Source: an uncultured Candidatus Altimarinota bacterium (GTDB lineage: Bacteria; Patescibacteriota; Gracilibacteria; BD1-5; UBA6164). Taken from it: a stretch of DNA of 64,000 bases. How positions within the stretch are numbered: the first letter of the stretch is position 1; each line of letters begins with the position of its first letter. The translations under genes were made by a program, and so were the position numbers. Below the pieces are notes generated by a model. That model was not told the DNA's origin, did no database searches, and was given only the letters and a program-made list of their open reading frames with translations. Shown one piece after another: positions 44,414-64,000 of this stretch. Where the stretch lies: contig CALMJA010000025.1 of NCBI GenBank assembly GCA_937864295.1, positions 22,944 through 86,943 on the forward strand, written 5' to 3'.

Positions 44414-44995
44414 ATGGAGAATTTTTTAAACAAAATAGTAGATTGAAATAAATTTGAATTACTTATTGATAAAAACATTTTTGATAAAGATATAGTTTTA
44501 AAAGCAGCATATAATTTTTTAGATAAATGATTTTTCTTTTTCAAGTTAGATTCTAATTGAAATATAATTTTAGTTTTTACTAAAAGAGAAGAAATTAAAG
44601 AAAAATCTGAAGAAATTATTGCTAATTTTAGTGATGAGTTAATTGCAGTTTATTTGAGAGATAAATTAGAAAAAGAAAATAAGACTATAAGAGAAGCTAT
44701 AGTAAATAAAGCTATAAATTGACCATTAGATATGAACAATTTTATAACTCTTGATACTACTAATTTAAATATTAATCAAGAAAAAAATCAAATTGATTTC
44801 GATAAAGATATAGATGATATTTTAAAAGAAATAGAGAATGATCCTGACTTAAAAATAGATGAGGAAGAAATAGAAAAAATATTAAGAGAAATAGAAGAAG
44901 AAAGTAAATTATTTGAAATTGAAAATAAAAAACCTAAAATAAATTTAGATACTAATGCTTTAAAAAATGTCAAAAAAAACTTTCAAGATAGATAA
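44414..44995 (+). CDS. hxsD: HxsD-like protein of the His-Xaa-Ser system
   Basis: 193 residues. The first 100 match the HxsD pattern: LLIDKNIFDKDIVLKAAYNF, a beta-strand pair, then ELIAVYLRDKLEKENKTIRE (family LLNDYxLRE motif). The rest is a very acidic coiled coil (EEIEKILREIEEESKL) not usual in HxsD. HxsD accompanies the radical SAM maturases HxsB/HxsC and is thought to take part in precursor recognition or assembly. The end overlaps the next gene by 29 bases. Confidence 0.8.
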
Positions 44996-45158
44996 TAGTA
45001 TTTACAAAAGTAATATTATATTAAAAGCCATAGAAGATTTTAAGGATTATTATATTATATCTTTTGAAAATAATGAAATAATAATAGACTGATATGATAA
45101 TATAGATGAAATTTTTAATGAGTTTATGAATTATGTTATTTGATTAATTAATGAGTAA
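44967..45158 (+). CDS. Second, short HxsD-like protein
   Basis: 63 residues. The start KIDNSIYKSNIILKAIEDFK mirrors the N-terminus of the gene before (IYDK-like, LKA-x-x-x-F) and the rest covers the beta-strand part (YYIISFENNEIIIDGYDN) without the LRE tail. It overlaps the preceding gene by 29 bases and lies five bases before hxsB. A split or duplicated HxsD is the simplest view. Confidence 0.65.
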
Positions 45159-45163
45159 AAATT

Positions 45164-46615
45164 ATGTTAAATGTAGAAAAAATAAAAAAAATAAATACTG
45201 AAAAAATATGATTTTTTAGATTTAAAAAATTAGATAAATATACTTATTTAATAACAAATGACGCTTGAAAATTTGAATATTTATCTAATCATGAATTTGA
45301 TAAATATATTTCATGACAAAATTTAAGAGATTTAATTAATTATCATGATTTGGTAAAAAAATGATTTATTAAAGATGAAAGCTATATAGAAAAAATGTCT
45401 TGAAGTGTATCTTTAAAAAATCATTTTGTGTGACTTTGACCAACATTACATATGATAGTAACTACTCTTAGATGTAACCATAAATGTAAATATTGTCACG
45501 CAGCTGTTGCCCCTATGTCAGCAAAAGAATTTGATATGACTATAGAAACTGCAAAAGAAGTTGTTGATACTATATTTTTTACTAATTCATCTTTTTTGAC
45601 AATAGAGTTTCAATGATGAGAATCTTTAGTTAACTATGATGTTGTCAAATTTATAGTTGATTATGCTAGAGAAAGAGCTTTTCATCTTAAAAAAAATTTA
45701 TCTTTTGTTATTGTTTCTAATTTAACTCTTATGACAGAAGATAAATTAAAATGGCTTCTAGATAATTGAGTTGATATTTGTACTAGTTTAGATTGAGATA
45801 AATTAACTCATAATAGTAATAGAACTTGATTTGATTGAGATAGTTTTGATTCTGTTACTTATTGGATGAAAAGAGTAGATGAGGAAAAACAAAAGAGAAA
45901 TATGTGAAAAATAGGTGCATTATTAACTGTTACCAAAGAGACTTTACCAAAATATAAGGAAATAATAGATACATATATTGATTTATGATTGAGTGGTATA
46001 TTTTTGAGATGGCTTAATCCTTATTGATTTGCTGCTTCACTAAAACAAGAAATATCTTATAATAAAGAAGATTGGATTGAATTTTATAAAAAATCTCTTG
46101 ATTATATAATAGAAATAAACAAATCTTGAAAATTCTTTAAAGAAAATATAACATCTGTTTATCTTAAAAAAATATTTAATCCTATTGATCCTGCTTTTAT
46201 GGATATAAGAAGTCCAAGTTGAATAGCTATTGGAGGAGTTGCTTATAATTATGATGGTAAAATTTATGCTAGTGATGAATCAAGGATGCTTTGAAGAATG
46301 TGAGATGATACATTTCTTATGACTAATCTTACTTGATCTTGAGAACAAAATTATAAAAATATGATGAATAGTGATATATCTAAAGTTGCTATTCAATCTA
46401 GTACATTAGATTGATTACCTTGATTTAATGAACATGTTTATAAACCTTATATATGAGTAGATATAATACATAATTATAAAATTACATGAAATTTTTATAA
46501 TCCAATTTTAAAGGATGATAAAGCTCAAATGCAGATAGCAATTCTTGATATTATTTTTGATAAACTTAGAAATGAAGAGGATAAGGCAATTTTGATGAGC
46601 TGGATAAAAGATTAA
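45164..46615 (+). CDS. hxsB: HxsB, radical SAM maturase of the His-Xaa-Ser system
   Basis: 483 residues. The radical SAM cluster motif is CNHKCKYCHAAV at residues 104-115, followed by FQGGES. An N-terminal region precedes it, as in HxsB. The C-terminal block STLDGLPGFNEHVYKPYIGV matches the HxsB end (cysteine-rich PGC...YKPYCG in the family), but all expected cysteines there are replaced (T, F, H, I). It should install a modification on HxsA, 23 bases downstream. The auxiliary Fe-S site appears lost. Confidence 0.88.
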
Positions 46616-46638: not shown

Positions 46639-47166
46639 ATGAAAGAAAATAAAAAGAAAATTTTTCCTAAACTTAATAAAAAGATAACATCTTTTTTGAC
46701 TGATGAGAGTGGTAAAATTACTAAAAAGGATGCTTTAGGGTTGAGTGCTTGAGCTATTATTCTAACTTGATTAGAAGATGTATCAGCTGTACACGCTAAT
46801 TCTTGACACGCTAGTTGATGACATTGTAGTTCTGTTTGACCTCTTTGAGGTCATGTTAATTATGCTCCAAGTCATTCAAATTATGCTAGTCATGATAATA
46901 ATGCTTGATGATGACATAGTAGTGTAGATCCTTGACATTATAATTGAGAATGTATTTATCCTAATTGACATTCTAATTGAACATTAACTAGCCATACTAG
47001 TTGAATAGTTAATTGACATTATAGTTGAACTCCTAATTGATGAACTATAAATGATTCTAAATTAGGTAGTTGGCATACTAATGTTGATCCAGCACATGCA
47101 AGTCATGGTTCACACGGTTCACACGGTTCACACGGTTCACACGGTTCACATTGAAGTAGATGGTAA
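46639..47166 (+). CDS. hxsA: HxsA, His-Xaa-Ser repeat precursor protein
   Basis: 175 residues. The N-terminal leader-like part is basic (MKENKKKIFPKLNKKITSFL, then TDESGKITKKDALGLSAGAI). After about residue 52 it is rich in His, Gly, Ser and Asn with His-x-Ser triplets HAS, HCS, HSS, HTS, HYS and HAS. It ends with six HGS triplets (47104-47157) and RW. Most glycines before the tandem are TGA. The family is the substrate of HxsB/HxsC. No HxsC by name is found; the next radical SAM gene may take that role. Confidence 0.85.
47104..47157 (+). repeat. Six tandem 9-bp units encoding His-Gly-Ser
   Basis: Units CAC/CAT-GGT-TCA. The first five use GGT for Gly and the sixth is CAT-TGA-AGT, using the recoded codon. 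The near-identical units suggest slippage expansion. Confidence 0.9.
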
Positions 47167-47180
47167 TATAAATTATTTTT

Positions 47181-48065
47181 ATGTCTTGATTAAATTGAAT
47201 AGAGATCTTTCTTTGATATCCTTGTAATCAAAAATGTAGTTTTTGTTTTCAAAAAGACTTAAGATATAAAGAACCTAAATTTTTAGATTATGATAAAGTT
47301 ATATCTATAATTGATTCTTGAATATCTGAGTGAAAAAATTCTATAATATTTTCATGATGAGAGTCAACTATGGATAAAAATATTCTAAAATATGTATCTT
47401 ATAGTAAATTATTGTGATTTAAAGATATAAGGATTCATACTAATTGATTATTATTTTCTGATAATAATAAGTTATTAGAATATTACAATAATTGAATTAC
47501 ATGAATTATTATATCAGTTCATTGATATTCAAAAATTCATGATTATTTAGTATGATTGGATTGAGCTTTTGAAAAATTGAAATTATCATTTTCTAATATA
47601 TCCGAATTAATAAAAACGGATAGGAACTTTGTACTAGATACCAATACTGTTTTAACTAGATATAATTACAATAGTATACATATATTATTTAAATTTTTAT
47701 CATATTTTCCCATTACTAGGAGCCAAGTAGTTCAGTTATATTCATTATATCTTTTTACTGATGAAGAGAAAAAAAAATTGTATATTCCTTATGATAAATT
47801 TAAGCCATTTATAGAAAAAATTATTCTTAATAATAAAAATGTTACTTTTGAAAATTTCCCATTATGTAAAGTTGATAGTAAATATTGGGATTATATTATT
47901 AAAAGACAAAAATACGATAATAATGCATATTGAAATATGTGAGAATGATTTGAAGAATCTGATTGCAAATATTTAGAAACTTGTCATGGTTGTAATCATA
48001 AAAATGATTGTACATGAATTCCAAAAGATTATTTAAGTATTTTTAATGATACGTTTAAAATTTAA
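47181..48065 (+). CDS. Radical SAM protein next to hxsA
   Basis: 294 residues. CNQKCSFCFQ at C15, C19 and C22, then IIFSGGEST. The C-terminus has FPLCKV and a cluster C-x5-C-x2-C-x5-C ending TGIPKDYLSIF, a layout seen in radical SAM enzymes with an auxiliary Fe-S site. It starts 14 bases after hxsA and so probably also works on HxsA. It does not have the HxsC sequence pattern that I know, so I leave it unnamed. Confidence 0.82.
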
Positions 48066-48075
48066 ATTTTAAAAT

Positions 48076-48801
48076 ATGAAAAATTTATTAATAATTATAT
48101 CTCTTGTATTTCTTTTATCTTCATGTTTTAACAATAAAGAAGATAAAAAATCAGATATTGTAGATAATGTTATTTATAGTTGAGACACTTTACCTTTGAA
48201 TGATAATTCTTCCTCTTCTTGAACTATTAACATATATTGAGAAAAAATTAGAAGCGATTTCAAGCTAGATGGAGATTTATTATGATTTCAAATGCTTATT
48301 GATAAAGATATTTGAGACGATGAAATTTATTATTATATTAATAGAGCTTATTTATTTTGAGATAAGGTTGATAATGATGATATAAATAAATTAATATCTT
48401 GTTTAGATTGAAATATATCTTCAGAATTATTATCTACTTTATTCAAAGAAATTTGTATTTGAGAAAATAAATATATAAAAGATGAAAATTCTAATAATTT
48501 TTCTATAAAAGATAGTTTATTAAAACTTAAAGAAGCTAAAAACAATAAAGACTTTAGTTGTAACTATTTTCTTGAAAAAGACTTATATGATTACCCTAAA
48601 GATGATAATCATTTTATTACTAGAGATTATTATTTTATTTGTAATAAAATTAAGAACTTAAATACTTATGATTTAAGAAAGGAACTTTTTTATTATGTAA
48701 AGGCTTTGGAAATAAACCAATGTGATTCTTTGAAAGATAAAAATCTTATAAATCTTTGTTTATATGAAAAAACAATTAATAATCCAAAATTTAAAAAATA
48801 A
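48076..48801 (+). CDS. Lipoprotein, unknown
   Basis: 241 residues. Signal peptide and lipobox LIIISLVFLLSSCFNN (Cys near residue 17). A Ser/Asn/Asp linker is followed by a helical domain with several cysteines (ISCLDG, EICIGE, FSCNYF, YFICNK, NQCDS). No family recognised. It overlaps the next gene by 38 bases. It could be the surface receptor or immunity-type partner of the cluster, which is only a guess. Confidence 0.65.
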
Positions 48802-50146
48802 ATCTAATATAGATTATTATTATTATCATAATTTCTGAAATAATATATTAAATTTAGATTTTAATATAAATAATTTCACTATTAATTATATAGTTTATAT
48901 AGTTAATAGTGATTTTTCGTGATTTACAAAGTTTTATGAAAAAATAAAAAATAACTTTATAACTGATGTTTTTGTTGAGAGAATTACTTTTAATAAAATA
49001 GAAAAACAATTGTTTTTTTCTATGATTTTTAATAAATTATTTTGGTTAAAATTAAATAATATTTATTTTGATAAAAATGATTATTTAGGATTGATAAATT
49101 TTCTAAATTTAAATAAGTTAGATATAAATAGGATATTTTTAGAAAATATGTCTATACAAGACGATTTATTATATCTTTTCAATAATTTAAATTGATTTAA
49201 TAATTTATCTTTTATTAATTTAGATAATAATTTAATTACTCATAATGGTATTAATAATTTAGTTTTATTTTTAACACTAAATTATATTGATTTAGAATAT
49301 TTAAGTTTAGTGTGAAATAAAATATCGGATTTGAATATTTTAAATCAATATTTAATTAATTCAAAAAATATTAGAATTTTAGATTTATCTGGAAATAATA
49401 TTTTAAATATAAAGTTGATTATAGATTTCCTTTATAAATCTAAATCCATTAAAGAACTTTATCTAAAAAATATATTTCTTTCTAATCATTTATTAGATGA
49501 ATTGTTATTATTTTTTTCTAAAAATAATAACTTAGATTTTTTTAGATTTAGTATAACAAAAGAACAATTTTTTTATAAGGAAAAATTTAATTCTTTAGAT
49601 ACAAATACTTATTTTGATATAGACTTAGTAAGTAATAATAAAATTTACTCTACTATTTATTTTAAAGTTTTGAATTGAAAAAAAATAGATAATTTAGACA
49701 ATGATTATTTTTATACTTTGCTATCTGATAATTTAGACAACGATTTTGAATATATAATTAAGGAAAAATCATTATATTTGAGTAGTTGAATTAATTTGTT
49801 TCTTTTTGATTTTAACGATTATAATAAAATAGATTTTTTACTTACAAATTATAGTTTTAATTATATTTATCTAGAAAATTATAAAATATCTGATAATGAT
49901 TTTATATTTTTTATAAATACTATTTTAAAAAATAGCAATAAAAAATATAAAATAAATTTTGTTTCAATAGAATTAAATTATTTTCAATTGGAGTATTTGA
50001 TAAATAGTTTTCCTAAAAACATATTTTATATAGAATTAAATCTAAACAAAATAGTTAAGAATAGAGAATTATATATAATACAAATGCTTAAAAATAAATC
50101 TTTCATATTTGAAAATATGGAGTTATATTCAAAAATTTTTAGATAA
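48764..50146 (+). CDS. Leucine-rich-repeat protein
   Basis: 460 residues, very rich in Asn, Leu, Ile and Phe. Repeats of the type LEYLSLVGNKISDLNIL, IRILDLSGNNILNIKLI and SIKELYLKNIFLS mark an LRR solenoid of the ribonuclease-inhibitor kind between residues 140 and 250. The frame starts inside the end of the lipoprotein gene (ATG 48764; a later ATG is possible). The first 100 residues and the last 150 are diverged. LRR proteins bind other proteins, so this may bind a precursor or target cell. Confidence 0.65.
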
Positions 50147-50147
50147 T

Positions 50148-51482
50148 ATGGAATCATTTTTAAATAAATCAGAAAAATTACTTTTAAATTTTTTAAAGGA
50201 GCCTTGAGCTTTTAGTTTTTTTCCTTCTTCATTTTTTTGGAATAGGGATTTTATAGATTTAGAAAAAAAATATATAGATTTTTTTTCTTCAGATTTATAT
50301 TTAAAAAAAGATAAAAATACTAAAAATAATCTCTACATTCATATTCCATTTTGTAGCAAAATTTGTAATTATTGTAACTGCTTTAAATATAAAGTTAATT
50401 CTAGAATTGAAATAAAAAAATATTTACGTTACCTAGAAAAAGAATCCGATATTTTGTTTAGGTTTAATTCTTATAGAAAAATAAATATTGATTGAATTTT
50501 TGTATGATGATGAACACCAAATATATTAAATTTAGATGATTTTGAATTTTTATATAAAATAATAAATAAATATTTTTTTATTGATAAAATAGAGGATTTT
50601 ATATTGGATTGACATCCAAATTATTATAATAAGAAAAAGTTAGACTTATTTAAAAATCTTTGAGTCACTAGAATCACATTTGCTATACAAACTTTTGATA
50701 AAAATATACTTATAAAAAATAATAGGGATTTTTATGACATAGATTTGGTTATTGAAAATTTATCTTATGCTAAAAAATTGGGAATCAAAGTTAATATTGA
50801 TTTATTAATTTGATTAAAATGACAGACTATAGATAGTTTTTTAAATGATATGTCTATTTTAAGTAATTTGCAGTATGATAATTTATCAATTCATTATTTT
50901 ATGAATAGCAATAATATATCATACAAAATTGCTTCAAATTATAATGATTTGATTATTTTTGTTAAGAAATACTTTAAAGAAAATAAATTTTTTTCAAACA
51001 GTAGTAACAAGTTTGAAGACAATTTTGCATCAACTAAAAATACTACTTTATCTTTATGAGCATCTAGTATAACTAATATTTATTCTAAAGTAATTTATTC
51101 TAAACCTGATATTTGAGATTATTATATCTTTTTAGATAATTTAAATCTTCCTTATTATAAATGACTTTCTTTATCCAAAAGAGATGAAATGATTAAATTT
51201 ATTTATTTAAATATATTGTATTGAATTAATATAAGTCATTTTTTAAATTTATACGAAGTTGATATATTTAAGGAATTTTATAATGAATTTAAGTTCCTAA
51301 ATAGTAACGATATTATCTTTATAGATAATAATATAATATATTCTAAAAAAAATGATTTAGAAACTCTTATTTATTTTAATATTTTTTTTATAGAAAAGTT
51401 TAGTTTTTTTGATTTAAATAATTATAATAAATCTGAATTAGATACATTTTTTTTATCTAACTGAGAATTAATTGATAAATAA
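50148..51482 (+). CDS. HemN/HemW-like radical SAM protein (copy 1)
   Basis: 444 residues. YIHIPFCSKICNYCNCF has the HemN-type CxxxCxxCxC at C69, C73, C76, C78, then IFVGGGTPNIL and VTRITFAIQTF, and DLLIGLKGQT. It resembles coproporphyrinogen oxidase-like enzymes and radical SAM methyl- or cyclopropanation enzymes of that class. No heme pathway gene is nearby. It starts one base after the LRR stop. A frameshifted paralog is at 56907. Confidence 0.85.
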
Positions 51483-51486
51483 TACT

Positions 51487-51858
51487 ATGGAAAAACACAA
51501 TATAGGGAAGCATTTTATATTAGATATTAATAATGTATGATTTAATAAATTCTATAAATTTGATGAAAAATATATAGAAGATTTTATTGTTGAATTGATA
51601 TCAAAAAATTGATTAAATGTTTTGTCTTCTAACTTTCATTTTTTTTGAAATATCAAATCATTTACTTGAGTAGTTTTACTTTCAGAGTCACACTTTAGTA
51701 TTCATACATGGCCTGAGTTTTCTTATGTTTCTATGGATTTATTTTCTTGTAATTTAAGTAAAGATTTAAGTACTAATATAGAAATTATATTAAAAGAATT
51801 ACTTTCAGAATTTTTTGATGGTGATATTTTAGTCGATAAAAAAATAATTAATCGTTAA
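51487..51858 (+). CDS. speD: S-adenosylmethionine decarboxylase family protein (SpeD)
   Basis: 123 residues, the size of bacterial class 1b SpeD. The self-cleavage site is visible in LLSESHFSIHTWPE (cleavage expected between Glu67 and Ser68 to give the pyruvoyl group), with the His and Cys (LFSCN, C88) of the active site. It would make decarboxylated SAM for aminopropyl transfer. No SpeE is nearby. Family members in some bacteria use ornithine or arginine instead. Strong family match, less sure of substrate. Confidence 0.92.
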
Positions 51859-51868
51859 TAATAATAAC

Positions 51869-52546
51869 ATGCTTGATCTACATAAAATGCTTTGATTTGA
51901 TGAAGTTTATGATGAATCTTTTAAAAACATTTTTCCTATATTTAAAAAGCTTTGAATAAAGAATAATCATACAATTGCTTCTGAAAGTTGATATTTTGTA
52001 AAATTATTAAATGATGCTTGAATAAAATCTAGCTGATCTGATATATTTTCCTGAATAGTAAATTTATCAAAATATAGATATCCTGAAATAGAATTTACAG
52101 TAAAAGATATGAGAAATTTTACTTTAGAGCCTAAGGTTGAATTAATTTCTTGTGTTGATTGATGTATTAATCATGTTTTTTCACTAGAAGAAGTTTGAGA
52201 AGTTTTTGATAGTGTTTATAGAAATTTAGAAGAAAAATGATTTTTTTATTTAGAATTTTGGACTGAAGAAGAAGTCTCTGAAAGTAATAAATTATCAACT
52301 AATAAAATTTTTAATATTGATTGATATAATATAACTCAGGTTGAAAGAAGACTATGAAATAATATTCATAATATGACTACTAAAGTTGAAAAAGATGGTG
52401 AAATTATAGACATTTTAAATGCTTATCATACATCTTTTAATTTTGAGAGTGTTATATCTCTTTTATATAAATCTTGATTCAAAACCCATATTGAATTATC
52501 TTTTAGCACAAACTATTCTAAAAAAATATTAGCTTTTAAGTATTAA
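51869..52546 (+). CDS. Methyltransferase-fold protein
   Basis: 225 residues. The layout is that of a class I SAM methyltransferase: SESGYFVKLLNDAGIKSSGS at motif I, FTVKDMRNFTLEPKVELISC at motif III, then HVFSLEEVGEVFDSVYRNLE. The typical DxGxGxG is replaced by ASESGYF, so SAM binding may be altered. It follows SpeD by ten bases. It could be a methyl- or aminopropyltransferase; the last share this fold. Confidence 0.6.
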
Positions 52547-52549
52547 TTT

Positions 52550-53491
52550 ATGTATTTATTTAATTATGCTAGGTCAGGTGAATTATATAGTGATAAACCA
52601 CATGTTTCTATAAAAATATGAAGTTGATGCCAAGCTTGATGTGATTGTGATTTTTCATATAAAAAGATTAAAAATATTGTTTTATATAAAAAAGATTCTA
52701 TTATAAGAAATGTTGATTATATTTCAGATAATTTTTCTTTGGATTTTGAAATATTTTTAGTATGATTAAATTTGTTAAAGTATGATGAAATAGAAGAAAT
52801 TTTAGATTATATTATTAAAAAATGAAGAAAATTTAAATTACAAATTCCTCATAATATGGATAAAGAGGATTATTCTACTTTATCATTTTTGTATAAAAAA
52901 TATGGCAGCTTTGATTGTTCTGTTCCCAAAACTATAGATACTTATATAGATCTTTCAAATTTGATATCTTATATAAATGATTTTAAAAAAATTAATATAT
53001 CTTGAAAAATATATTTTGATATTTTTTTAGACATAAATAAGTATACAAAAATAATAGAAACCATAATATCAAAACTTTCTACAAATAAAAGTAATAATAT
53101 ATATAATTGTATTATATGAAAATATTTTGATTTAAAATTTCATGATTTATCTTGGAAAATAGATAATGAAAATAAAATTATATCAAATTTACAAAGGGAT
53201 AATTGTTTGATGAAAGATTATTTTTATTTGGATAATTCAAAAATATTTTTATATGACCATATAGAGGTATGACCAAATTGAGCTTTTACATTCCATGACA
53301 ACTTATGTTACTTATGACATTTTGAGATAAGTAATATATCTTTTAATAATTTTGAAATAATATCACATTTTGATAAATACAAAGATTATTTAAATAATAT
53401 AACTAAATGTTGAAATTTAAATAATCAATGCTATAAATGTATAAAAAATCAATATAATTATAATAAATCTAACTCTGAATATGTCTATTAA
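52550..53491 (+). CDS. Radical SAM-like protein with shifted cysteine motif
   Basis: 313 residues. SIKIGSGCQAGCDCDF has C27, C31 and C33 (CX3CX1C) in place of the CX3CX2C of its paralog at 59122 (C21, C25, C28). The C-terminal half has GPNGAFTFHDNLCYLGHFEI and ends with C-x5-C-x2-C (QCYKCIKN), resembling a twitch/SPASM site shared with the paralog. The changed motif could bind the 4Fe-4S cluster poorly or not at all, so it may be a substrate-binding partner. Overlaps the next gene by 11 bases. Confidence 0.6.
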
Positions 53492-54227
53492 AAAAGTTTT
53501 AGTTTTTGGCTTATGAAAACAATGACAAAAATATATCAATTTTTTTAAAAAAAATTGATATATTGTTAATTGAGTTTGTGTTACTGAAAAAACTAAAATA
53601 AATATAATTAAAAATTTTTCTATAGAAGTTTTATTGGAATCAGAGTTATTAGATTATTCATCATTTGACTTAATAGTTTTTGCTTTACCTCCTATAATTC
53701 AGTGAAAAAAAGCATTAGAAATTTTATCTAAATGATACACAAATAAAGTAATAATTGAAATCCCAGTTTCCTTTGAAAATAGTGAGATAAAAGATTTATT
53801 AAAATATAAAAATGTATATTTCTTTTTAGAGGAATATTTTACTTTGCTCTCTGAATTTATAAGAAAAATAGATATTAGATTAATAGAAGAGATTAATATC
53901 TCAATTTTTACTAATAAATCAGACTATGATAATTTAGAAGCTAGAAAAGTAACTTTTTTACATATAAATAGTAATTTTTTATGATTAAAAATTAAAAAAG
54001 AACTTTTTAATTATGAAATAAATTTTCATGACTTAGAAGATATTTTTTACGAAGTTTCATTTTATTATAAGTGAAATAAAATTTTTTATAAATTTTCTCA
54101 AGAAAAATATTTAGAAATATGAGAAAAAAAAATAAATGATGATTTTAATTTTGATAAAGTTTTGAGTAATATTATAAGGTCTAAAAGTAATTTATTTACT
54201 TCAAATTTTTATTTATATAATATTTAA
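53481..54227 (+). CDS. Gfo/Idh-type Rossmann-fold protein
   Basis: 248 residues. The N-terminal NAD(P) fold is VLVFGLGKQGQKYINFFKKN, followed by FDLIVFALPPIIQGKKALEI and KVIIEIPVSF, the typical Gfo/Idh/MocA pattern (E-x-P near the active site). Only the N-terminal half is convincing; the C-terminal part is short and diverged. Oxidoreductase on a sugar-like or thiazoline-type substrate is a possibility. It overlaps the gene before. Confidence 0.65.
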
Positions 54228-54238
54228 TTTATATTAAA

Positions 54239-56020
54239 ATGGATAAACTATATATTTCTACAAATTTTTTATCTAGTAATCATAATTATAGTATAGCTTA
54301 TATATATAATAATGAGATTTTTTGTATAGAATTAGAAAGAATAAATAGAATTAAGGATTATCCTTCATTGCCTTGAAAAAATACATTATTGGACTTAGAA
54401 TTATTTGATTTATTAGATAAAGAAACTTTAGATTTAAGAGTTAAAAAACTGTGAAATTATTTATGAAAATTATTATATTATAGTATCTTAAAAAATGGAA
54501 TTGATTTATCTTTAATAAATCAGATATATATACTTAATTTACCAATTAATGTTGATATATCATGGTTAAAATGAGAAATTTTTAATTATAAATATAATTA
54601 TCATCATTTATTTCATGCTTTTAGTGCTTTTTATTCATCTTGATTTGATTCTTCTTTGATTCTATGTATGGATCATGATTGATATGATGAATATTTATGA
54701 TGAAAAGATATTATGCATTCATTATGGTATTTTGATAAAGATAAATTTGATTGTTTATCTTTTCAAGAGTTTTCCCCAATTAATTGATATGCTTGAATAT
54801 GAGTTATATATGAAATTTCCTCTAAAATTTGTTGATTATCAGAATGAACTTTTATGTGACTATCATCTTTTTGATTTGATATATGGCCAGATTTAAAAAT
54901 TTTTGATTTAAATAGTGATTGAGTTTTAATAAACACTGAAATTCTATGAAAAAAAAGTTTTTTAGATTATTATGATATCCATGAAAATATAAAAAAGTGA
55001 CTTTTAAACAAATTTTGAATCAAAGAAACTGATAAATTTATTTGAATAGAAAAAAGTTTATATTCTAACTTTGCATTTAAAATACAGAAGGAAACAGAAG
55101 CTGCAATTTTTCATTTGGCTAAAATATGATTTTCTCTAACTTGAAATATTAATATATCTATTGCTTGATGAATATGATTGAATATACCTTCAAACTCTAA
55201 AATAATATCAGAACTAAATTATAAAAATATTTTTGTACAACCTGCTTGTCACGACTCTTGACTGTCTCTATGATGACTTTATTATTTGTATTATAAAATT
55301 TTATGAAACAGTAATATTATAAATTTTAAAAGTTGATGACTTTGATTTTTATATTCAGATGAAGAAATACTTTCTGAATTAATCAAATTTAGTGAATTAT
55401 CTTTTGAATTAATTTGAGATAAAAAATATCAATTTGCTGCTGAATTGTTGAGTAAATGATTTATAATATGATGGTTTCAATGAAAATCAGAATTTTGACC
55501 TAGAGCATTGTGATTTAGAAGTATATTTTCATGAGCATTTTCTTTGGATTTAAAAAATAAGTTAAATGATATAAAATGAAGAGAAAGGTATAGACCTTTA
55601 GCTCCTATTTTGTTGGAAGAAGATATAGATAATTATTTTATAAATTGAAAGATTAGTCCATTTATGACAATGTCTTTTAAGATTAAAGAAGATAAAATTA
55701 ATAATATAATTTGAGCTACTCATGTTGATTGAACAGCTCGTTATCAAAGTGTTAATATTGATAATAATATTTATGTATTTAAATTATTAAATGAATATAA
55801 GAAAATTACTTGAGAATCATTAATAATAAATACATCATTTAATCAAAACAATGAACCAATTGTTGAAAAACCATTAGATGCTATAAAAATGTTTTTGTCT
55901 ACAGATTTAGATAAATTATTTATTTGAAATTACATGGTTAGCAAGAAAAAAGTAGATTTAAAATACAAATATAATTCAGAAAAATATATATATAATCATA
56001 ATAATTTAATTTCACAATAA
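54239..56020 (+). CDS. O-carbamoyltransferase of the NodU/CmcH/TobZ family
   Basis: 593 residues, typical size. Kae1-like N-domain with NHNYSIAYIY, ERINRIKDY and YHHLFHAFSAFYSSGF (metal-binding HH-x-x-H), then ISIAGGIGLN and the YrdC-like C-domain with GKSEFGPRALGFRSIFSG, YRPLAPILLEE and LIINTSFNQNNEP. These enzymes transfer a carbamoyl from carbamoyl phosphate via carbamoyl-AMP to hydroxyls of antibiotics or Nod factors. It strongly suggests a decorated secondary metabolite. Confidence 0.92.
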
Positions 56021-56914
56021 ATGAACAATATACTTATAGAACTTATACTTACAAATCAATGTAATAAAAGATGTGAATATTGTGATTTAGACTTTAGAAA
56101 TAAATCTCTTTCTTATAGTGACTTAGATTTATTTATAGATTTTTTGTCTAAAAATAAAGCAAATTATACTATAAATTTTTTTTGATGAGAGCCTTTGTTA
56201 GAGTTTGAGAATTTAAAATATTTTTTAGAAAAATCAAAAAAATATGTAAATAGATTTACTATATGAACTAATTGATTTTTTCTTGATAGGGGAAAATTGG
56301 ATTTTTTTAAGGTAAATAATGTTAAAATTTATTTATCTATAGATAATATAACTCTCTGAAAAGATTTAAATTTAGATCTTATAAAAAATTATAATGAAAT
56401 TATTAATATAAACTTTATAAATGATCCAGATTATCTTAATAACTCTCTTGATTTATATGAAAAAATAATTTCTTTTTGATTCAAAAATATATCTTTTATG
56501 CCAGTTTACACTACAAAAAAACGGAACAAAGACAATTTAGTAAAATTAAAAATTGTTTATGATAATATTTTATCTAATAGTGTAGTTGTTAATTTAAATT
56601 CTTTTTGTTATTATAACTGATTTTCAAGTGATAAACAATTTATACTTGATACAGATTGATTTTTTTATAGTGACTTAGATTCTTTATTGTGGTTACAAAA
56701 ACAATATAACATCATTGATAAAAATATTGTAAAAGATATTGAAATTAATACTAAATTAATTAGTTTATATGATAATAATTTATCATTAGAAAAAGTTATA
56801 AGTTTGTATAATAAAGAAAAAATATTAAGATTAGTTTTAGATATACCTAAATCAACTTGAAACATTGTTAGTTTTAAAATTATAGATAAAATACTAAAAT
56901 ATAATTATGTATAA
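56021..56914 (+). CDS. Radical SAM protein (copy 1 of a paralogous pair)
   Basis: 297 residues. QCNKRCEYCDLDF with C14, C18, C21, then INFFGGEPLL and FTIGTNGFFL. There is no C-terminal cysteine cluster, so no auxiliary site. It starts immediately after the carbamoyltransferase stop. A clear paralog is at 63099 (shared FFGGEPLL, MPVYTTKKRNKDNL versus LPVYFTKKWSKDNL). Substrate unknown. Confidence 0.82.
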
Positions 56915-58229
56915 AAAATTTATTGAAAATAACTGACTTTTTGCTCTTAATGATATATTTAAAGATTATTTAGGTACCCAATTTTTCCCTAGCAAATTTT
57001 TATGTAATGACAATTACGATTTATTAAAAATAAAAAATATATATTCATATAGTTTTGATTTAAATAATATAAATAACCTTTATATACATATACCATTTTG
57101 TAAAACAAGATGTTATTATTGTCACTGTTTTACTTATGTTAGTGATAAATTTATTGAGGATTATGATATTTATTATTGATTATTTAATAAAAAATATAGA
57201 TTTTGTAATTTGAAATTCGAACTCTAAAATAAAGTTAAATTCAATTTATATTTGATGATGAACTCCTAACATCGTATGAGCAAAAAATTTAAATAAATTA
57301 TTTAAATATATTTTTAGTGTTTTTGATTTATCATGTATTAAGCAATTTAATATAGATATTAATCCATATCTTTTAGATAATGAAATATTTACTGTTCTCA
57401 AAGAATATAATGTTACAAGAGTTACTTATGCTATTCAATCTTTTAATAAGTCAGTTTTAGATTTAAACTCTAGATATAATACTGAAATAGATCATTATTA
57501 TAATATTAATTTATTTCATAAGCTTTGAATTAAAGTTAATATTGATTTAATGATATGAATAAAGTGACAAACATTAGAAATATGTAAAAGTGATATACTT
57601 AAGTCAATTGACTTAAATGTAGATAATATATCTTTAAACTATTTTATACAAAGTGATAATGTAGTATATCAAATAGATGATGAAAAAAAATATTTAATAT
57701 CTCAAGTTAAGAAGTATTTTAATAAAGTTATAAATTATAGGTATAATAAATCGTATAATGAGCAAGAGGAAACATAATTTGAATTTGAAATTGATCTATT
57801 ACTCATTTAAATTCTAATCTAATTGGATATAATAATTTTGAATTAAAAAATTATTATGAAAATATTGATTCTTGAATTTATTTCTCAAATTTAAAATATT
57901 TGGATAGACAAATTGAATTAATAAAATATTTATTTTTTAATTTAGTTTTTTGAGTTGAAATATCTTATATTGAAAATAATTATTGATGATTTTTATGATT
58001 AGAAGATAAGATGAGTTTTTTATATGATAATAATATACTAATAAATAACTGATATAAAATATATTCAAATGTAAATAACTTTAAACTTTATTTATATCTT
58101 ACAATACTATTATATGACCATATTGAACATGATAATTATTTAAATACAAAACTTAATAAAATTAGTATAATTATAAATTTAAGGAAGTTTTTCTTACAAA
58201 ATTGAGAGAAAGTAGACGAAGATTATTAA
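56907..58229 (+). pseudogene. HemN/HemW-like radical SAM (copy 2) with two compensating frameshifts
   Basis: The frame from 56907 has the CKTRCYYCHC motif (C65, C69, C72, C74) and runs to a TAA at about 57225. The downstream homology (GIYIGGGTPNIV, VTYAIQSF, DLMIGIKGQT) is in the +1 frame and stops at 57775-57777. The final third (IGIGNGSITHLNSNLIGYNN to the TAA at 58229) returns to the first frame. The two shifts compensate, so the gene would be 440 residues like copy 1. The first site is near an A-run (57165-57195), the second near 57768-57775. Recent decay, error or recoding are all possible. Confidence 0.75.
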
Positions 58230-58240
58230 AAAAAAATATT

Positions 58241-59125
58241 ATGGAACCTAAAAAATCAAATGTATTTGAATGTAGTGCAGTAACTAGATGACTTGAAATA
58301 GAGTTAACTAGTTTTTGTTGAATGAAATGTTTGGTTTGTGCTAGAGAAGAGTTGGAAAAACATCAATTTTTAGATTTTGAGGGTTTTATAAAAATAGTAG
58401 ATCTTTTAGAAGAATGAAATTATACAGAAGTTATGGTTTGCGGTTTATGAGATGCATTTATTCATCCAGAAGTAAATGACTTTATGGATTATTTATTCAA
58501 TAGACTCCCAAAAATAAATCTTTTTTTCATGACAAAGTGACTTGCATTAAAAGATTTTCATTTAAATAAAATGAAAGAATTAAAATCAAGATGATACAAT
58601 GTTTCTTTAACATTTTCTGTTTTTTCTTTACAAAAAGAAATGTATAATTATCTTACTTGAGGAGATTTTTATGATAATTTTATATCCGTATTAAATAAGG
58701 CACATAAATTAAAAATAAATTATTCTATGGAGTTTATGTTATCTGTTTTAACATTAAAAGAATTAGATAAATTTAAGAAATTTGCAAATAGTTTATGAAA
58801 AGACTATTGAATTTCTTTAGTTCATAATTGGTGAGGAAAGATCTCTGAATGAGTTCATAAGAAGCTTTTTGATAAAGACATTTTAAAATGACATTACATA
58901 GAAAGATGAGAATGAGATATTTGTGAAGTAATGAAATATGATTATTTGTATATAGATTCTAAATCTTGAGTTTTCCAGTGTTCTCTTAATGAAATTGATA
59001 GGATAGGTTACTTATGACAATTAGGAGATTATACTTTGCAAGAATTTTTAAAAAAAAAGAGAAATATAAATTATAAAAAAGCTTGTGAAAATTGTTTTTA
59101 TTATAAATATAAAACATTTAATTAG
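58241..59125 (+). CDS. Radical SAM protein with C-terminal cysteine cluster
   Basis: 294 residues. TSFCGMKCLVCAREE with C26, C30, C33, and MVCGLGDAFIHP at the place of the GGE motif. The C-terminus has CEVMKY, FQCSLNE and CENCFYY, suggesting a SPASM/twitch cluster. The order of cysteines resembles peptide-modifying SPASM enzymes. It starts 11 bases after the frameshifted gene and ends with a four-base overlap with the convergent gene. Confidence 0.8.
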
Positions 59126-59985
59126 TATTTATTATAGTTAAATCAAGTTGATATGCACTTATAACAGTTGTTTTCAAAATCATTATTTAGTTTTTCTAAA
59201 TAGTGATTTTTATATTTATTTAGATCATCTATTATATCTTTTTCATTTTTTTCTAAGTTGGATATTTTATTATTTCATATAAAACATAAGGGGTTATGAA
59301 AAACTATATTTAAGTCTTTATCTACTTCAAAATGATCATTAATTATTATGTTGCTTCAATTAATTTCAAATGAATCATAAGCAAAACATGATTTTATATT
59401 TAGGTTTTCTATTTTTTTTTCTTTTGTGTTTATGTTATATAATTCTCTTGTATTAATAATTATATTTCAAATTTTTATTGTTTTAGCATTATTATTTTCC
59501 TCAAAATTTATTTTAAGTATTTTTTCTAAAACTTTAACAAATTCATATTTTATTAATAAGTCATAATTTAATATTATATCTTTATTATAAAATTCTTTTA
59601 TACTGTTTATTAATTTTATTAAGTCATTTTTATTTTCAATTTTTTTGGATATTACAAATTCATTTATTATATTTTCGTATATTTTTAGATCATTATTTTC
59701 TGATTCAATAGGTATTTGTATCCTGCAATTTCTTTCAAGTTTCTGAATATATTTTATTATTTCTAGAATATATTCATTTTTTATGTTATTTGTTCAATAT
59801 AAAAAATAACTAAATCAAGAATCTGAAACATTATTAGATATATCTATTTGTTTTTTTAAATCATCTAACTTAAAGTTTCTATTTTTTTTAATTGTTTCAC
59901 TACAACTTTGGCATCAAGTAGGGCATCATTCTCATATTGATAAAAAAATTTCTGTTTTTGAGTTCTTTGAAATAAATAGTGACAT
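59122..59985 (-). CDS. Radical SAM protein, paralog of 52550 (minus strand)
   Basis: 287 residues. IGEGCPTGCQSCSETIKK has the intact CX3CX2C at C21, C25, C28. HFEVDKDLNIVFHNPLCFIG and NNCYKCISTGFNYNKY align with the ends of the protein at 52550 (HIEVGPNG...LCYLG; CYKCIKNQYNYNK). It is the only minus-strand gene in the island. Its last four bases overlap the stop of the plus-strand gene at 58241-59125, and its start is 72 bases from the divergent SPASM gene. Confidence 0.78.
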
Positions 59986-60057
59986 TTTTAGTAATATTTA
60001 TCTTTTAAATTATTATTTTTTAAGTATACTAATACATATATTTAAATCAATTAATTT

Positions 60058-61428
60058 ATGATAACAAAAATTTTTTATTCTTTGGTTTTATTTCCTGATA
60101 TTTCTTATAATAATACTATTTATAATTATTTTTATTTGGAAAAAATTAATGAATTTTCTTATTGAACTTTTGAGTTGATTTTTAGTAATTGAGTTATATC
60201 TGAAAAAATTTATTTTACTCATATAGATTTTGATATAGATTTTAAATATAAAACTACTAAAAACTGGAAAATTTATTGAGAAAATATATCTTTATTGGAA
60301 TCTATATTTTTAATTATAAATAAAACTGACAATTGAGACTTTAACTTTTTTAAAGATAAGTCTTTTTATGATAAAATCCCTTTTTGAACTGTTTTGACAA
60401 TTACTAGTAAATGTAATTTATTTTGCAATTATTGTTTTAATGATTATGACTATCCTCTAAAAGATAGAAATACAAGAGAAAATATATGATTAGATAGATA
60501 TAAAAAAATAGTAGATATATTGTATAAATATTGAACTAGGGACATAATTATAACTTGATGAGAGCCATTTTCTGCTCCATTTTTATGGGAACTTTTAGAT
60601 TATATAAAAAGTAAGAAGATTTTTATAAGAATAAATACAAACTGAACTTTATTATTAAATAAAACTCTTGAAAGATTAAACAGAGACTTCTCACTTAACT
60701 TGATGGTTTCTATGCATGAATTTAATAATAAAGATTATTATGAAATTAATCGTGTCTGAGCTAAAAATATAGCATGAATTGAAGAATTAAAATCTTTTGA
60801 GAGTAAATTTGAAGAAAAAGTCATACAATTAAAAAAGATAAAAAATTTTAAAAATATAAGTTTAGATTTCCTTACAATATTGACTCCTAAAAATATACTA
60901 TATCTTGATGATATATATAAATTTGTATTGAATAATTTTGAAATTCAGAATTGGCATTTTTTTAGGTTATATTCTACTTGAACTACTAAATGAATAAGTA
61001 GAGAGATGATAAATTTAGCTATTCATAAAATCTATAAATTAAACAATTTCTATCAAGTTAATTTTAAAATAGTCGATAGTGTACCTTTTTGTGCAACTAA
61101 AAATACTGAAATAGCAAAACAAGTTATTGATTGAGAACTTTCAGAACATCATAATGTAAAAACCATAATTACAACAGATTGATATATTCAAATAATGAGT
61201 GCTTTTGATTCAAATTTATGAAGCATTTTTGAAAATGACTTAATGGAAGTATGGAACTGAGAGTTTGTACAAAAAATGTTAAACCATTGATTTTTACCTA
61301 AAGATTGTTTTGATTGTAAATATAAAGAAGATTGTAGATGATGATCTAGAATGGATGCCAATATATTTAATTGAAATTATAGTGCTTTTGATCCACTTTG
61401 AGATTTAAATAATAAAGTTAAAATGTAA
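60058..61428 (+). CDS. Radical SAM/SPASM peptide maturase-like protein
   Basis: 456 residues. An N-terminal domain of about 115 residues (RRE-like in position, not proven) precedes SKCNLFCNYCFNDYDY (C119, C123, C126) and IITGGEPFSAP. The C-terminal SPASM has VPFCATKN, then KDCFDCKYKEDCRGGSRMDA, the classic C-x2-C-x5-C-x-G-G pattern. Such enzymes (PqqE, anaerobic sulfatase-maturing, RiPP maturases) modify peptides or proteins. It is the best RiPP-type maturase here after HxsB. Confidence 0.9.
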
Positions 61429-61431
61429 TAT

Positions 61432-62298
61432 ATGAATAAATGTCATTTAAACCATTCTATTAATTGTGAATATTCTACTATATGTTCTAAATGATCAAAA
61501 TGAATAAAAGATTATAAGAATTTTATATATTTTAATAATTTAATATCAAGTTATAGTCTTGAAAATTTTGAATTATTAAAATATTTAATAATAAATTGAT
61601 ATAGAAAAAGTTATTTAAATATGTGAGGACATAATAAGTTAGAGAATATTTTATCTATAAAGAGAAAATTATCTTATAATTTTATTTGATTTTTTAAAAA
61701 GATAGTTTTTAATTCAGATTATGGATTTTGAATTTTTTATTATTTGAATTGAAGTTCTGATTATTTTTGATTATATCCAAGATGTTGTGTTGATAATTTT
61801 AATTATGTTTGATGAGATAATTTATACTGAAACTCTTATTTTACTTCACTAGCATTTTCAAATTCTGATTTCTTTTGCCCATTACTTTTCCCAATAGTTT
61901 ATTGAAAATCTAATTTAGATTTCAATTTTATGCCTTGATACAAATTTCATTCATTTGATTGTGACTGAACAATAAAATATATGCATTGAGTTTTGAAATA
62001 TTTTTTTTCTAGAAATATAATAACAAAAGATATTTTTTTTAATTTTATATCATTACCATTTTTAATAACAAAAAATAAAATTATTTTATTTGATTGATAT
62101 TATGAAGATTGAAATATATTTTATTCTTGATTTTTTAATATAGATTTTTGAGAATTTAAAGAAACTATTTTTTTTTCTAGAAGTATTAAATTATCTTATT
62201 TAAGTTCTAATAATTTAGTTATTCCTTGATTTTCAAAAAAAATAATTCCTAAAAATGTAAATTTAATATATGGATCTAAGAATAGTAAATACTTGTAA
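61432..62298 (+). CDS. Unknown protein with N-terminal cysteine cluster
   Basis: 288 residues, Phe/Tyr/Asn/Gly-rich. The start MNKCHLNHSINCEYSTICSK has three cysteines and two histidines, and further cysteines appear in RCCVDN, FFCPLL and FDCDG. Many glycines are TGA, including paired ones. No radical SAM or other motif was seen. It lies between two radical SAM genes, three bases after the first and overlapping the second by 29 bases, so it is likely part of the pathway. It could be a substrate protein or a metal-binding partner. Confidence 0.6.
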
Positions 62299-63109
62299 TA
62301 ACAATTGTTTATATTGTTTGGAATCTTCACTTAGAGATAAGGATAAATTTATAGATAAAAATACTATATTTTCTAAGGTTATTGAAAATTCCGATAGATT
62401 TAACATAACATTTTATTGATGAAATCCATTAATGCATCCTGACTTAAAGGAAATAATATCATTTTGTAAAAAAATAGGTTATAAATCTATATGATTATTA
62501 ACAAATACTTATTGATTAAATAAAAATAATTTACAAGATTATTATAACTTGTGACTTTCCACAATTTGAGTTTATTTTAATTCTTTTTCTAAAGAAAATC
62601 ATGAAAAAGTAAATTGAAATTGAATTTCTTATGAGCAGTTGATTTACAATATTAAATTAATTTCAGAATTTAATTTAAATTTAAAAATAATTATCCATGT
62701 AAATAATCTAAATTTATCAAATCTTTATAAAGATATATATCTATTAAATAAAAATTTTTGAATAAATAATATAGATTTTGTAAACTATTTTCCTTTTGAT
62801 AAGCCTTATCAAAATAGAAACCTTTTAGAATATGAATTAATAGAAAATAGAGAAAATATTATTTCTTTATTTAAAATATTAATTAAATTAGATATAAAAT
62901 TTAATTTCTTAAAATTTAGTAAAGATTTTTTCTTTGATAATAAAAATTACTATAATTTTAAAATTTGAGTTGAACAACAAGTCTGAAAAGAAGATCTCAT
63001 TGTTTTAAATTCAAAAACCAAACCTTTTTGTTTTACAGAAAAAAGATGTAAAAGTTGTTTTTTAAAAGATATTTGTAAGTTTTATAAAAATTTTGATTAT
63101 GAAATATAA
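62270..63109 (+). CDS. Radical SAM protein
   Basis: 279 residues. VNTCNNNCLYCLESSL with C9, C13, C16, and FYGGNPLMHP in the GGE position (Asn for Glu). The C-terminus has KPFCFTEKRCKSCFLKDICK, a C-x5-C-x2-C-x5-C auxiliary-type cluster. It overlaps both neighbours. Confidence 0.82.
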
Positions 63110-64000
63110 TTTAATCCAACATATAACTACTTATTGTAATTATGATTGTAGTTATTGTGATGTAATAAAAGATTGAAAGAACATAAAAGATCTTGATTTA
63201 GAATTATTGAAAAATTTTATTAAACTTAATAAAGATAATATAAATAGATTTAAATTTTTCTGATGAGAACCTCTTTTAAGGTGGAATGATATAAAAAATA
63301 TCATAGATAACACAAAAATATACTTATGAAATAAATTTGAGATAGTTACAAATACAACTTTATTAAATGATGAAATTTGATTATATTTTTATAATTATTT
63401 TGAGATAATTTTTTTTAGTATAGATAGTGAAAATCAATTTAATTATGAAAAAATTTTTAATTTTATAAATAAGCATAATTTAAAAAATAAAGTTTATTTT
63501 AATTTAATAATATCTCCTTCCAAAGAAGAAATTGCTTATGAACAATTTTTAAAAATTTATTCTGCTTGATATAAAAATTTCAATATATTACCGGTTTATT
63601 TTACGAAAAAATGGTCTAAAGATAATTTATTAAATTTATCTAAAGTTTTAAAAAAAATTATTGATTTATCTATAGTAGATTCCTCTATAAATTTGTATTG
63701 ATTTCAATCAAATAATTGATACAATAGTTCTTTGATAAATGATAGCTTATTTATAGATACTAATTTAAATATTTATTATAGCGATTTTGTATCTACTTTT
63801 TATTGAAAAGATATAAAGAATGATTTATTTATATCAAAAATAGAACCTATAACAAATATACCAAATTTTATTTTGAGAAATAAGAAAAATATACTATTAG
63901 ATTTTGAAAAGAAATTGATTGATAAAATAGATTGACAAAAACAGCTTCACTTAATAATGGATTACTTTTCTATATATTTAAATAAAAAATTAAATGGAAT
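63099..64000 (+). CDS. Radical SAM protein (copy 2), cut by window end
   Basis: At least 300 residues; the frame is open to the window edge. TTYCNYDCSYCDVIKD with C13, C17, C20, then FKFFGGEPLLRW and LPVYFTKKWSKDNLL. Paralog of the protein at 56021. It overlaps the previous gene by 11 bases. The island continues beyond the window. Confidence 0.8.

Follow-up and report, generated by a model that had tools for sequence, protein, structure and literature searches.

We analyzed a 64,000-nucleotide stretch of DNA (hereafter the window) from contig C25 of an uncultured Candidatus Altimarinota bacterium of the class Gracilibacteria (genome G000; 1.28 Mb, 91% complete), taking reading frames with translation table 25, in which TGA encodes glycine. 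Read in this way, 44.4-64.0 kb is a single dense gene block that opens with a His-x-Ser (HXS) cassette and continues as an array of radical S-adenosylmethionine (radical SAM) and other tailoring genes; the window ends together with its contig, inside this island. A first-pass annotation made from the sequence alone had described 47181-64000 as an island of nine or ten radical SAM enzymes adjacent to HXS and had proposed it as a new biosynthetic system that might process the precursor HxsA. Ten radical SAM-type proteins are indeed encoded where it placed them, eight matched by PF04055 plus the two proteins X1 and X2. Its remark that almost every gene overlaps its neighbor was right about the tight packing and overstated its extent: 9 of the 16 neighboring pairs overlap, with mechanically assigned starts, and the other seven are 0-72 bases apart. 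GC content drops from 21-29% to 16-20% past 48 kb of the window. All genes described below lie on the + strand unless stated otherwise, and percentages given with single genes are identities to G119, a relative from a different genus.

The adjacency to HXS was borne out. The cassette starts with hxsD (44414..44995; TIGR03976, 61.3 bits against a cut-off of 50), followed by a gene for a 63-amino-acid (aa) protein of family F4 (44967..45158) and by the radical SAM maturase gene hxsB (45164..46615; TIGR03978, 479 bits against a cut-off of 370), so that HxsD and HxsB both pass their equivalog models. The best structural match of the modeled N-terminal domain of HxsD (predicted local distance difference test score 74.7) is to RPB11-like polymerase subunits and is weak (E 3e-3). 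By family clustering, F4 was found in 17 of 25 neighborhoods, and its member in genome G072 had no Pfam match; as a side observation, such 61-66 aa proteins adjoining HxsD are possible partners of the RPB11-like domain.

The precursor HxsA (46639..47166) scores 36.8 bits with the HxsA3 model NF038309, below the cut-off of 65. Alignment of 20 leaders shows a conserved leader, a variable core and a C-terminal (HGS)n-RW tail. The window copy carries seven consecutive H-[GSA]-S units; all 19 histidines beyond residue 40 stand within H-x-[SN], as do all 11 in the core, compared with a mean of 2.9 in shuffled sequences. The same grammar holds for 241 of 251 histidines beyond residue 40 in 22 HxsA sequences, every one of which contains an NGH segment. 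With a short precursor gene, a conserved leader, a variable core and adjoining candidate modifying enzymes, HxsA has the features of a precursor of ribosomally synthesized and post-translationally modified peptides (RiPPs). The idea of a Flp-pilin-like leader is tentative: the 20 leaders hit four Pfam families (E<=1), none of which is a Flp family.

Behind hxsA lies rS1 (47181..48065; PF04055 3e-15; 59%), an HxsC-like radical SAM protein which may belong to the HXS cassette and which reaches 73.4 bits with the HxsC equivalog TIGR03977, against a cut-off of 267.9. Because HxsB and HxsD pass their cut-offs while HxsC does not, the locus is best filed, judging by these model scores, as an HXS-derived variant and not as canonical HXS.

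The array proper begins with a predicted lipoprotein (48076..48801), which follows the hxsC-like gene and has relatives in G119 and in G149, a genome from the same genus as G000; the G119 homologue has a sub-threshold LPAM_1 match. Next to it lies a leucine-rich-repeat (LRR)-like protein (48764..50146; 51%), for which the earlier LRR call rests on sub-threshold matches such as PF12799 (E 0.005). The HemN-like radical SAM protein a (hemNa; 50109..51482; PF04055 4e-20) matches HemN (PDB 1olt, 2e-23) and NocN (9p2u, 2.5e-11), and its best model scores are with HemN models. It is followed by SpeD, an S-adenosylmethionine decarboxylase (51472..51858; PF02675 2e-20), by a class I methyltransferase-like protein (51869..52546; PF13649 E 5e-4, below cut-off; 39%), by X1 (52550..53491), by a Gfo/Idh-like oxidoreductase (53481..54227; PF01408, 24.4 bits against a cut-off of 24) and by a NodU/TobZ-type carbamoyltransferase (54239..56020; PF16861 3e-56, PF02543 9e-18) with PDB matches to TobZ and GdmN. 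The earlier SpeD and carbamoyltransferase calls proved sound (SpeD reaches 81.9 bits with TIGR03330, cut-off 75.65, and keeps the SESHxxIHTWPE stretch when aligned to the PDB enzyme 1vr7); the methyltransferase and Gfo/Idh calls are weak but plausible.

The remaining genes are rS2 (56021..56914; PF04055 2e-10), a paralogue of rS6 with 35% identity to it; the HemN-like radical SAM protein b (56907..58229), broken into three frames (56907-57227, 57136-57777 and 57900-58229); rS3 (58202..59125; PF04055 4e-12; 76%); X2 (59122..59985, - strand), the opposed orientation of which is also found in G119; rS4 (60058..61428; PF04055 4e-15; 78%), with a SPASM-like end and best scores with NirJ2/AhbD models; a protein without a family match (61432..62298), for which a reciprocal-best orthologue is absent from 16 other arrays compared; rS5 (62270..63109; PF04055 9e-19); and rS6 (63093..64000), which runs up to the contig end and has NCBIfam radical SAM matches as well as PF04055 at C25:86066. 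The G119 relative of the HemN-like protein b is intact (446 aa), and both real decay and an assembly error are possible for the split copy.

X1 and X2 are paralogues (32% identity), neither with a meaningful Pfam match; in a sequence search of the PDB, X1 hit biotin synthase alone (E 0.71). A confident structure model of X1 nevertheless has a radical SAM fold, and its nearest folds include the peptide-modifying enzymes EpeE, SuiB and SkfB as well as MoaA, BlsE and viperin. X1-type radical SAM-fold proteins (P0001-P0018, including the window copy) carry an unusual CX3CXC motif instead of the cluster motif CX3CX2C: it was seen in 10 of the 11 closest X1-like proteins aligned, and CX3CX2C is kept in X2, in the X1-like P0020 and in a more distant G119 counterpart.

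The first-pass annotation had also predicted that the island continues past the window, and an apparent far end was found on contig C81 of the same genome (L105) by a search with a G119 array protein. C81 carries a radical SAM gene cut by the contig start and then three further radical SAM genes (346, 421 and 312 aa). These are followed by a protein of 409 aa, LRR-like by eye, and by homologues of the border families F7 (prepilin peptidase), F8, F5, F9 (rpoD) and F12 (dnaG). The same border genes close the array in G119. From this gene order, C81 looks like the far end of the locus begun on C25, and the whole locus likely holds fifteen radical SAM-type genes, HxsB and C81 included. Such a concentration exceeds chance: 13 of the genome's 22 PF04055 matches (E<=0.001) lie here, nine on the C25 stretch (HxsB included) and four on C81. 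As a separate observation, close relatives (78% identity) of the 297-aa radical SAM protein that ends the G119 array occur elsewhere in G000 (L106, C38:5663-6556) and in G149 (L107, C22).

We compared the locus across a class sample of 192 genomes. HxsB scored above cut-off in 22 of these, all belonging to the same order as G000, and 14 control genomes gave no such score; G024 and G071, with HxsB below cut-off, bring the HXS genomes to 24, with 25 neighborhoods compared. A frame of hxsD, small gene, hxsB and hxsA recurs, and the filling behind it amounts to 2 to 15 radical SAM genes in the 12 arrays reaching the right border. The left border, often beside ATP synthase genes, reads for example ATP-synthase epsilon gene, hxsD, hxsB, hxsA. 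The right border consists of a prepilin-peptidase-family gene, F8, F5, rpoD and dnaG, and a right-border gene was on the same contig in 12 of 21 arrays examined. In a survey for a dedicated prepilin peptidase, the family PF01478 was matched in 25 of 34 genomes, twice each in G186, G085 and G178 and once in the others; one match is the border gene in G119, G043, G072, G170, G051, G178 and G186. Genomes without HXS have one match or none, and at E 0.01 this search missed the border gene of G000 itself on C81. In G156, the HXS cassette is preceded by six consecutive pilin-like genes (L029:11398-19253), all members of one family and 429-444 aa long.

The filling is variable. Clustering at 40% identity placed 156 array radical SAM proteins of at least 200 aa in 74 orthogroups, 42 of them singletons; PF04055 (E<=0.001) was matched by 93 of 97 proteins tested (93 of the 166 labeled array radical SAM proteins outside hxsB, plus the four from C81). 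The most shared members are the 422- and 314-aa radical SAM proteins of the right end, whose C81 copies have orthologues in 11 and 9 of 16 other arrays. Synteny in relatives, which the first-pass annotation had suggested checking, is clear in G119, with 15 reciprocal-best orthologues mostly in the same order, and patchy in G149. Its proposed refuters, lack of conservation and membership in unrelated housekeeping pathways, were neither of them found outright. Radical SAM matches per genome are more numerous in the 24 HXS genomes (median 15.5) than in 10 genomes of the order without HXS (median 6; Mann-Whitney p=1.2e-5, relatedness not corrected). These genomes measure about 0.9-2.1 Mb and, in 12 complete cases, carry 4-12 radical SAM genes outside the locus.

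SpeD and the carbamoyltransferase are optional extras of the array and not its core. SpeD was found in only four of the 192 genomes (G000, G182, G145 and G124), and we rejected it as a tracer of the island since the copies in G182, G145 and G124 sit in other surroundings, outside any such island. The NodU-type cluster was confined, in the compared loci, to G000, G170, G174 and G163, and the G119 locus has no counterpart of SpeD, NodU or the protein at 61432. Matches to the spermidine-synthase family PF01564 in G000 are weak though over the 22.9-bit cut-off (34.5 and 26.7 bits); G182 reaches 119 bits, G145, which has SpeD, 23.8 and G149, which does not, 28.8. Because the matches in G000 are only weak, decarboxylated SAM might serve the neighboring methyltransferase-like or radical SAM proteins as an aminopropyl donor. 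Other genomes fill their arrays with NifH- and NifDK-like proteins, a DegT aminotransferase, asparagine synthases, phosphoenolpyruvate (PEP)-utilizing proteins and a U32 peptidase-family protein. The NifH/BchL-like and NifDK-like genes lie within the HXS arrays of G043 (L071), G135 (L081) and G071 (L096), unexpected radical SAM partners beside a peptide precursor. The gene set of the window represents one version of an array whose content changes while its borders mostly stay in place; it is not a fixed pathway. Hence the proposal of a new biosynthetic system stands as regards an HXS-linked array but falls as regards a fixed pathway with SpeD and NodU at its core, given that G119 lacks both; the accompanying statement that no known pathway has such a set agrees with our comparisons and with the literature found, where none matched.

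The array goes with hxsA. A search of 34 genomes (the 24 with HXS and 10 without HxsB over cut-off or leader) detected the HxsA leader in 22: two copies each in G024 and G135 and a single one in the other 20. The search found no leader in the ten genomes without HXS, in G071, which has a divergent HxsA-like gene, or in G079. Radical SAM genes stand behind hxsA in 21 of the 22 leader genomes, and in the remaining one, G125, the contig stops at hxsA. In G182, hxsA heads an array on C72 while hxsD and hxsB lie on C66 without one. Likewise, hxsB copies without a recognizable hxsA (G182 C66, G163 C16 and G079) had no labeled radical SAM gene downstream in the stretches fetched. The second HxsA-leader genes lie off the main locus, at L213 (G024 C6), near a prepilin-peptidase-family gene, and at L214 (G135 C2).

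A scan for HxsB across 84,980 species genomes confirmed 206 places, of which the best 80 loci were examined; eight were dropped from radical SAM counts as hxsB was not found as an open reading frame, and 24 more with less than 6 kb downstream were excluded from the medians. Within 10 kb behind hxsB, the median number of radical SAM genes was 4 in 27 code-25 loci and 1 in 21 others, the latter possibly undercounted by a model built from Gracilibacteria arrays. Sixteen of these 21 had none or one, as did the proteobacterial and myxococcal HXS loci counted. Arrays outside the class occur in Parcubacteria (L146, seven genes), Azambacteria (L153, four), Schekmanbacteria (L154, eight), Omnitrophota (L173, six) and Elusimicrobiales (L188, three). 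Several proteins of L146, L153, L154 and L173 match Gracilibacteria array proteins (best 51-56%), and the 422/314-aa pair recurs in one Parcubacteria and one Azambacteria locus. Similar HxsA leaders, together with H-[GSA]-S tails, were seen in L148, L150, L153, L154, L162, L164, L166, L168, L175 and L180. The architecture recurs in other phyla along with homologous array genes and a conserved HxsA leader, which counts in favor of the reading proposed below.

The gene content of the locus, the way it stays linked to hxsA, its variation within borders that are mostly constant and the H-x-[SN] pattern of histidines in HxsA are all observed, and they lead us to a reading that we hold to be evenly balanced between right and wrong: an HXS-derived system in which interchangeable sets of radical SAM enzymes act on HxsA, a predicted-exported His-x-Ser/Asn precursor that we infer to be the substrate. 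An HXS cassette would be followed by a species-variable array of radical SAM and other tailoring genes whose enzymes likely act on HxsA one after another. The H-x-S/N sites would be the targets of HxsB and the HxsC-like enzyme; further modifications, for instance methyl groups placed by the HemN-like proteins and a carbamoyl group by the NodU-type enzyme, would come from the array. The leader could be removed by signal peptidase at an A-x-A site or by the prepilin-type peptidase of the far border, giving a heavily modified peptide, predicted to be exported and trimmed. To alter the product, species would gain, lose and replace array genes; the leader and the NGH segment would be retained, as would the H-[GSA]-S tail in most cases.

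Several results weigh against this proposal. The earlier suggestion that the island processes HxsA is backed by strong physical linkage but not by co-variation: with HxsB controlled, HxsA core and array content are uncorrelated (partial Mantel r=0.086, p=0.22; 17 loci, four truncated arrays dropped), whereas the simple test gave r=0.247, p=0.027. G000 and G178 have similar cores (0.81) and only two array genes in common, and G000 and G119 share 15 array genes at a core similarity of 0.24. Among several correlations examined, array size did rise with total H-x-[SN] in HxsA (rho 0.756, p=4e-4, 17 loci; rho 0.78, p=0.005 for the means of 11 genera), but not with core-only counts (rho 0.39, p=0.12) and not in fresh loci, where downstream DNA was cut at 10 kb (rho -0.01 in seven code-25 loci, -0.22 in all ten). 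In view of these results, the array could be acting on the invariant portion of HxsA, or it could be producing something different. The HxsC-like and HxsA scores are both under their NCBIfam cut-offs, and no PqqD-like RiPP recognition element matched the model of HxsD, the only protein so modeled for this purpose, for which the RPB11-like fold was best. One array gene of the window is broken, and in G149, of the same genus, rS1 and the lipoprotein are all that follows hxsA up to the end of the contig. The Falkowbacteria locus L166 has a long HxsA repeat and no radical SAM gene in 9.8 kb behind hxsB, so the HxsA tail needs no array; L164 likewise has a long repeat and none, in only 3.6 kb of downstream sequence. 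Finally, the NifH/NifDK-like, DegT, asparagine synthase and PEP-utilizing families present in arrays are better known from small-molecule pathways. As a side observation, HxsA cores are alike across genera or families (G000 and G178, L068; G186 and G072; G085 and G149, the last by eye), which suggests that cores are exchanged independently of the remaining locus.

The best-surviving alternative, unlikely in our view yet a serious contender, is that the array makes a sugar-, nucleoside-, lipid- or tetrapyrrole-like small molecule which is then either set free or joined to the constant region of HxsA, the latter serving as carrier or anchor. This would fit the finding that array content, with relatedness controlled, does not follow the HxsA core, and the carbamoyltransferase, Gfo/Idh, DegT, NifH/NifDK-like, asparagine synthase and PEP-utilizing enzymes suit such pathways, as do the best scores of rS4 with NirJ2/AhbD and of hemNa with HemN models. 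However, the array remains with hxsA even where hxsB lies elsewhere, the best folds of X1 include several peptide-modifying enzymes, and no polyketide, nonribosomal peptide synthetase or terpene family appeared among the array families scanned, though many single genes lie outside those scans.

We regard it as improbable that the array modifies another protein of the locus, the candidates being the lipoprotein encoded behind hxsA and F5, a large border protein that appears to be secreted. In many loci the gene behind hxsA does encode a protein of 200-350 aa whose N-terminus looks, by eye, like that of a secreted protein or lipoprotein, and F5 (771-1476 aa) occurs in 15 of 25 neighborhoods; but the proteins encoded behind hxsA fall into the separate clusters F30, F41 and F49 plus singletons, and F5 also lies near array-less hxsB copies (G163b and G079) and is nearly devoid of H-x-S (0-2 in five sequences). 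A mere hot spot, at which unrelated radical SAM genes gather beside hxsA with no joint function, would account for the high turnover, the broken gene, the low GC and the near-empty G149, but it is very doubtful given the ordered orthologues kept between G000 and G119, the recurrence of the 422/314-aa pair, seen at many right-hand array ends as well as in two other lineages, and the few radical SAM matches in genomes of the order without HXS.

The reading of HxsA as the substrate can be extended, with some reserve on our part, to a bolder one that may well not hold: HxsA would form the backbone of peptide natural products of a new class, built by an interchangeable line of up to about fifteen radical SAM enzymes, joined in some species by a NifH/NifDK-type complex, with ultra-small bacteria swapping cassettes between fixed borders to renew the product, and with parallels in Parcubacteria, Schekmanbacteria and Omnitrophota. 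If true, few sites would concentrate as much radical chemistry on a single product, here in small genomes otherwise poor in such enzymes, and the locus would be a good place for new chemistry and give a first handle on the role of the little-studied HXS system. A natural experiment that would tie enzyme to change is offered by pairs whose arrays differ although their cores are similar, such as G000 and G178, and by pairs in which array genes are shared and the cores differ, such as G000 and G119. In addition, radical SAM-fold families undetected by Pfam, such as those of X1 and X2, become concrete targets.

HxsB occurs in three of the open-access papers searched, and the one relevant among them, PMC9062424, names HXS in passing only in the passages concerned. 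We found no functional study of HXS in the open-access literature searched and no published description of radical SAM arrays in these bacteria among the papers listed, so that one could have been missed. Several known systems nevertheless resemble parts of the locus. SpeD is shared with polyamine synthesis, which differs in that spermidine-synthase-family matches are weak here, and the carbamoyltransferase resembles TobZ, GdmN and NodU in having both Pfam N and C domains. The match of hemNa to NocN recalls the class C (HemN-like) methyltransferases NocN and NosN, but HemN itself matches better. Radical SAM-modified RiPPs such as streptide (SuiB), the epipeptides (EpeE) and the SkfB system likewise combine a leader-bearing precursor with nearby radical SAM genes, and the predicted fold of X1 is similar to their enzymes. 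Those systems use one or two radical SAM enzymes, whereas the locus described here would have 10-15 diverse ones with replaceable content. The closest relative is HXS itself as defined by the NCBIfam models HxsA, HxsB, HxsC and HxsD: the window shares with it HxsB and HxsD over their cut-offs and, beside them, an HxsA-like precursor with HGS repeats, and departs from it in a radical SAM gene behind hxsA far below the HxsC cut-off and in up to about 15 radical SAM genes plus further tailoring genes.

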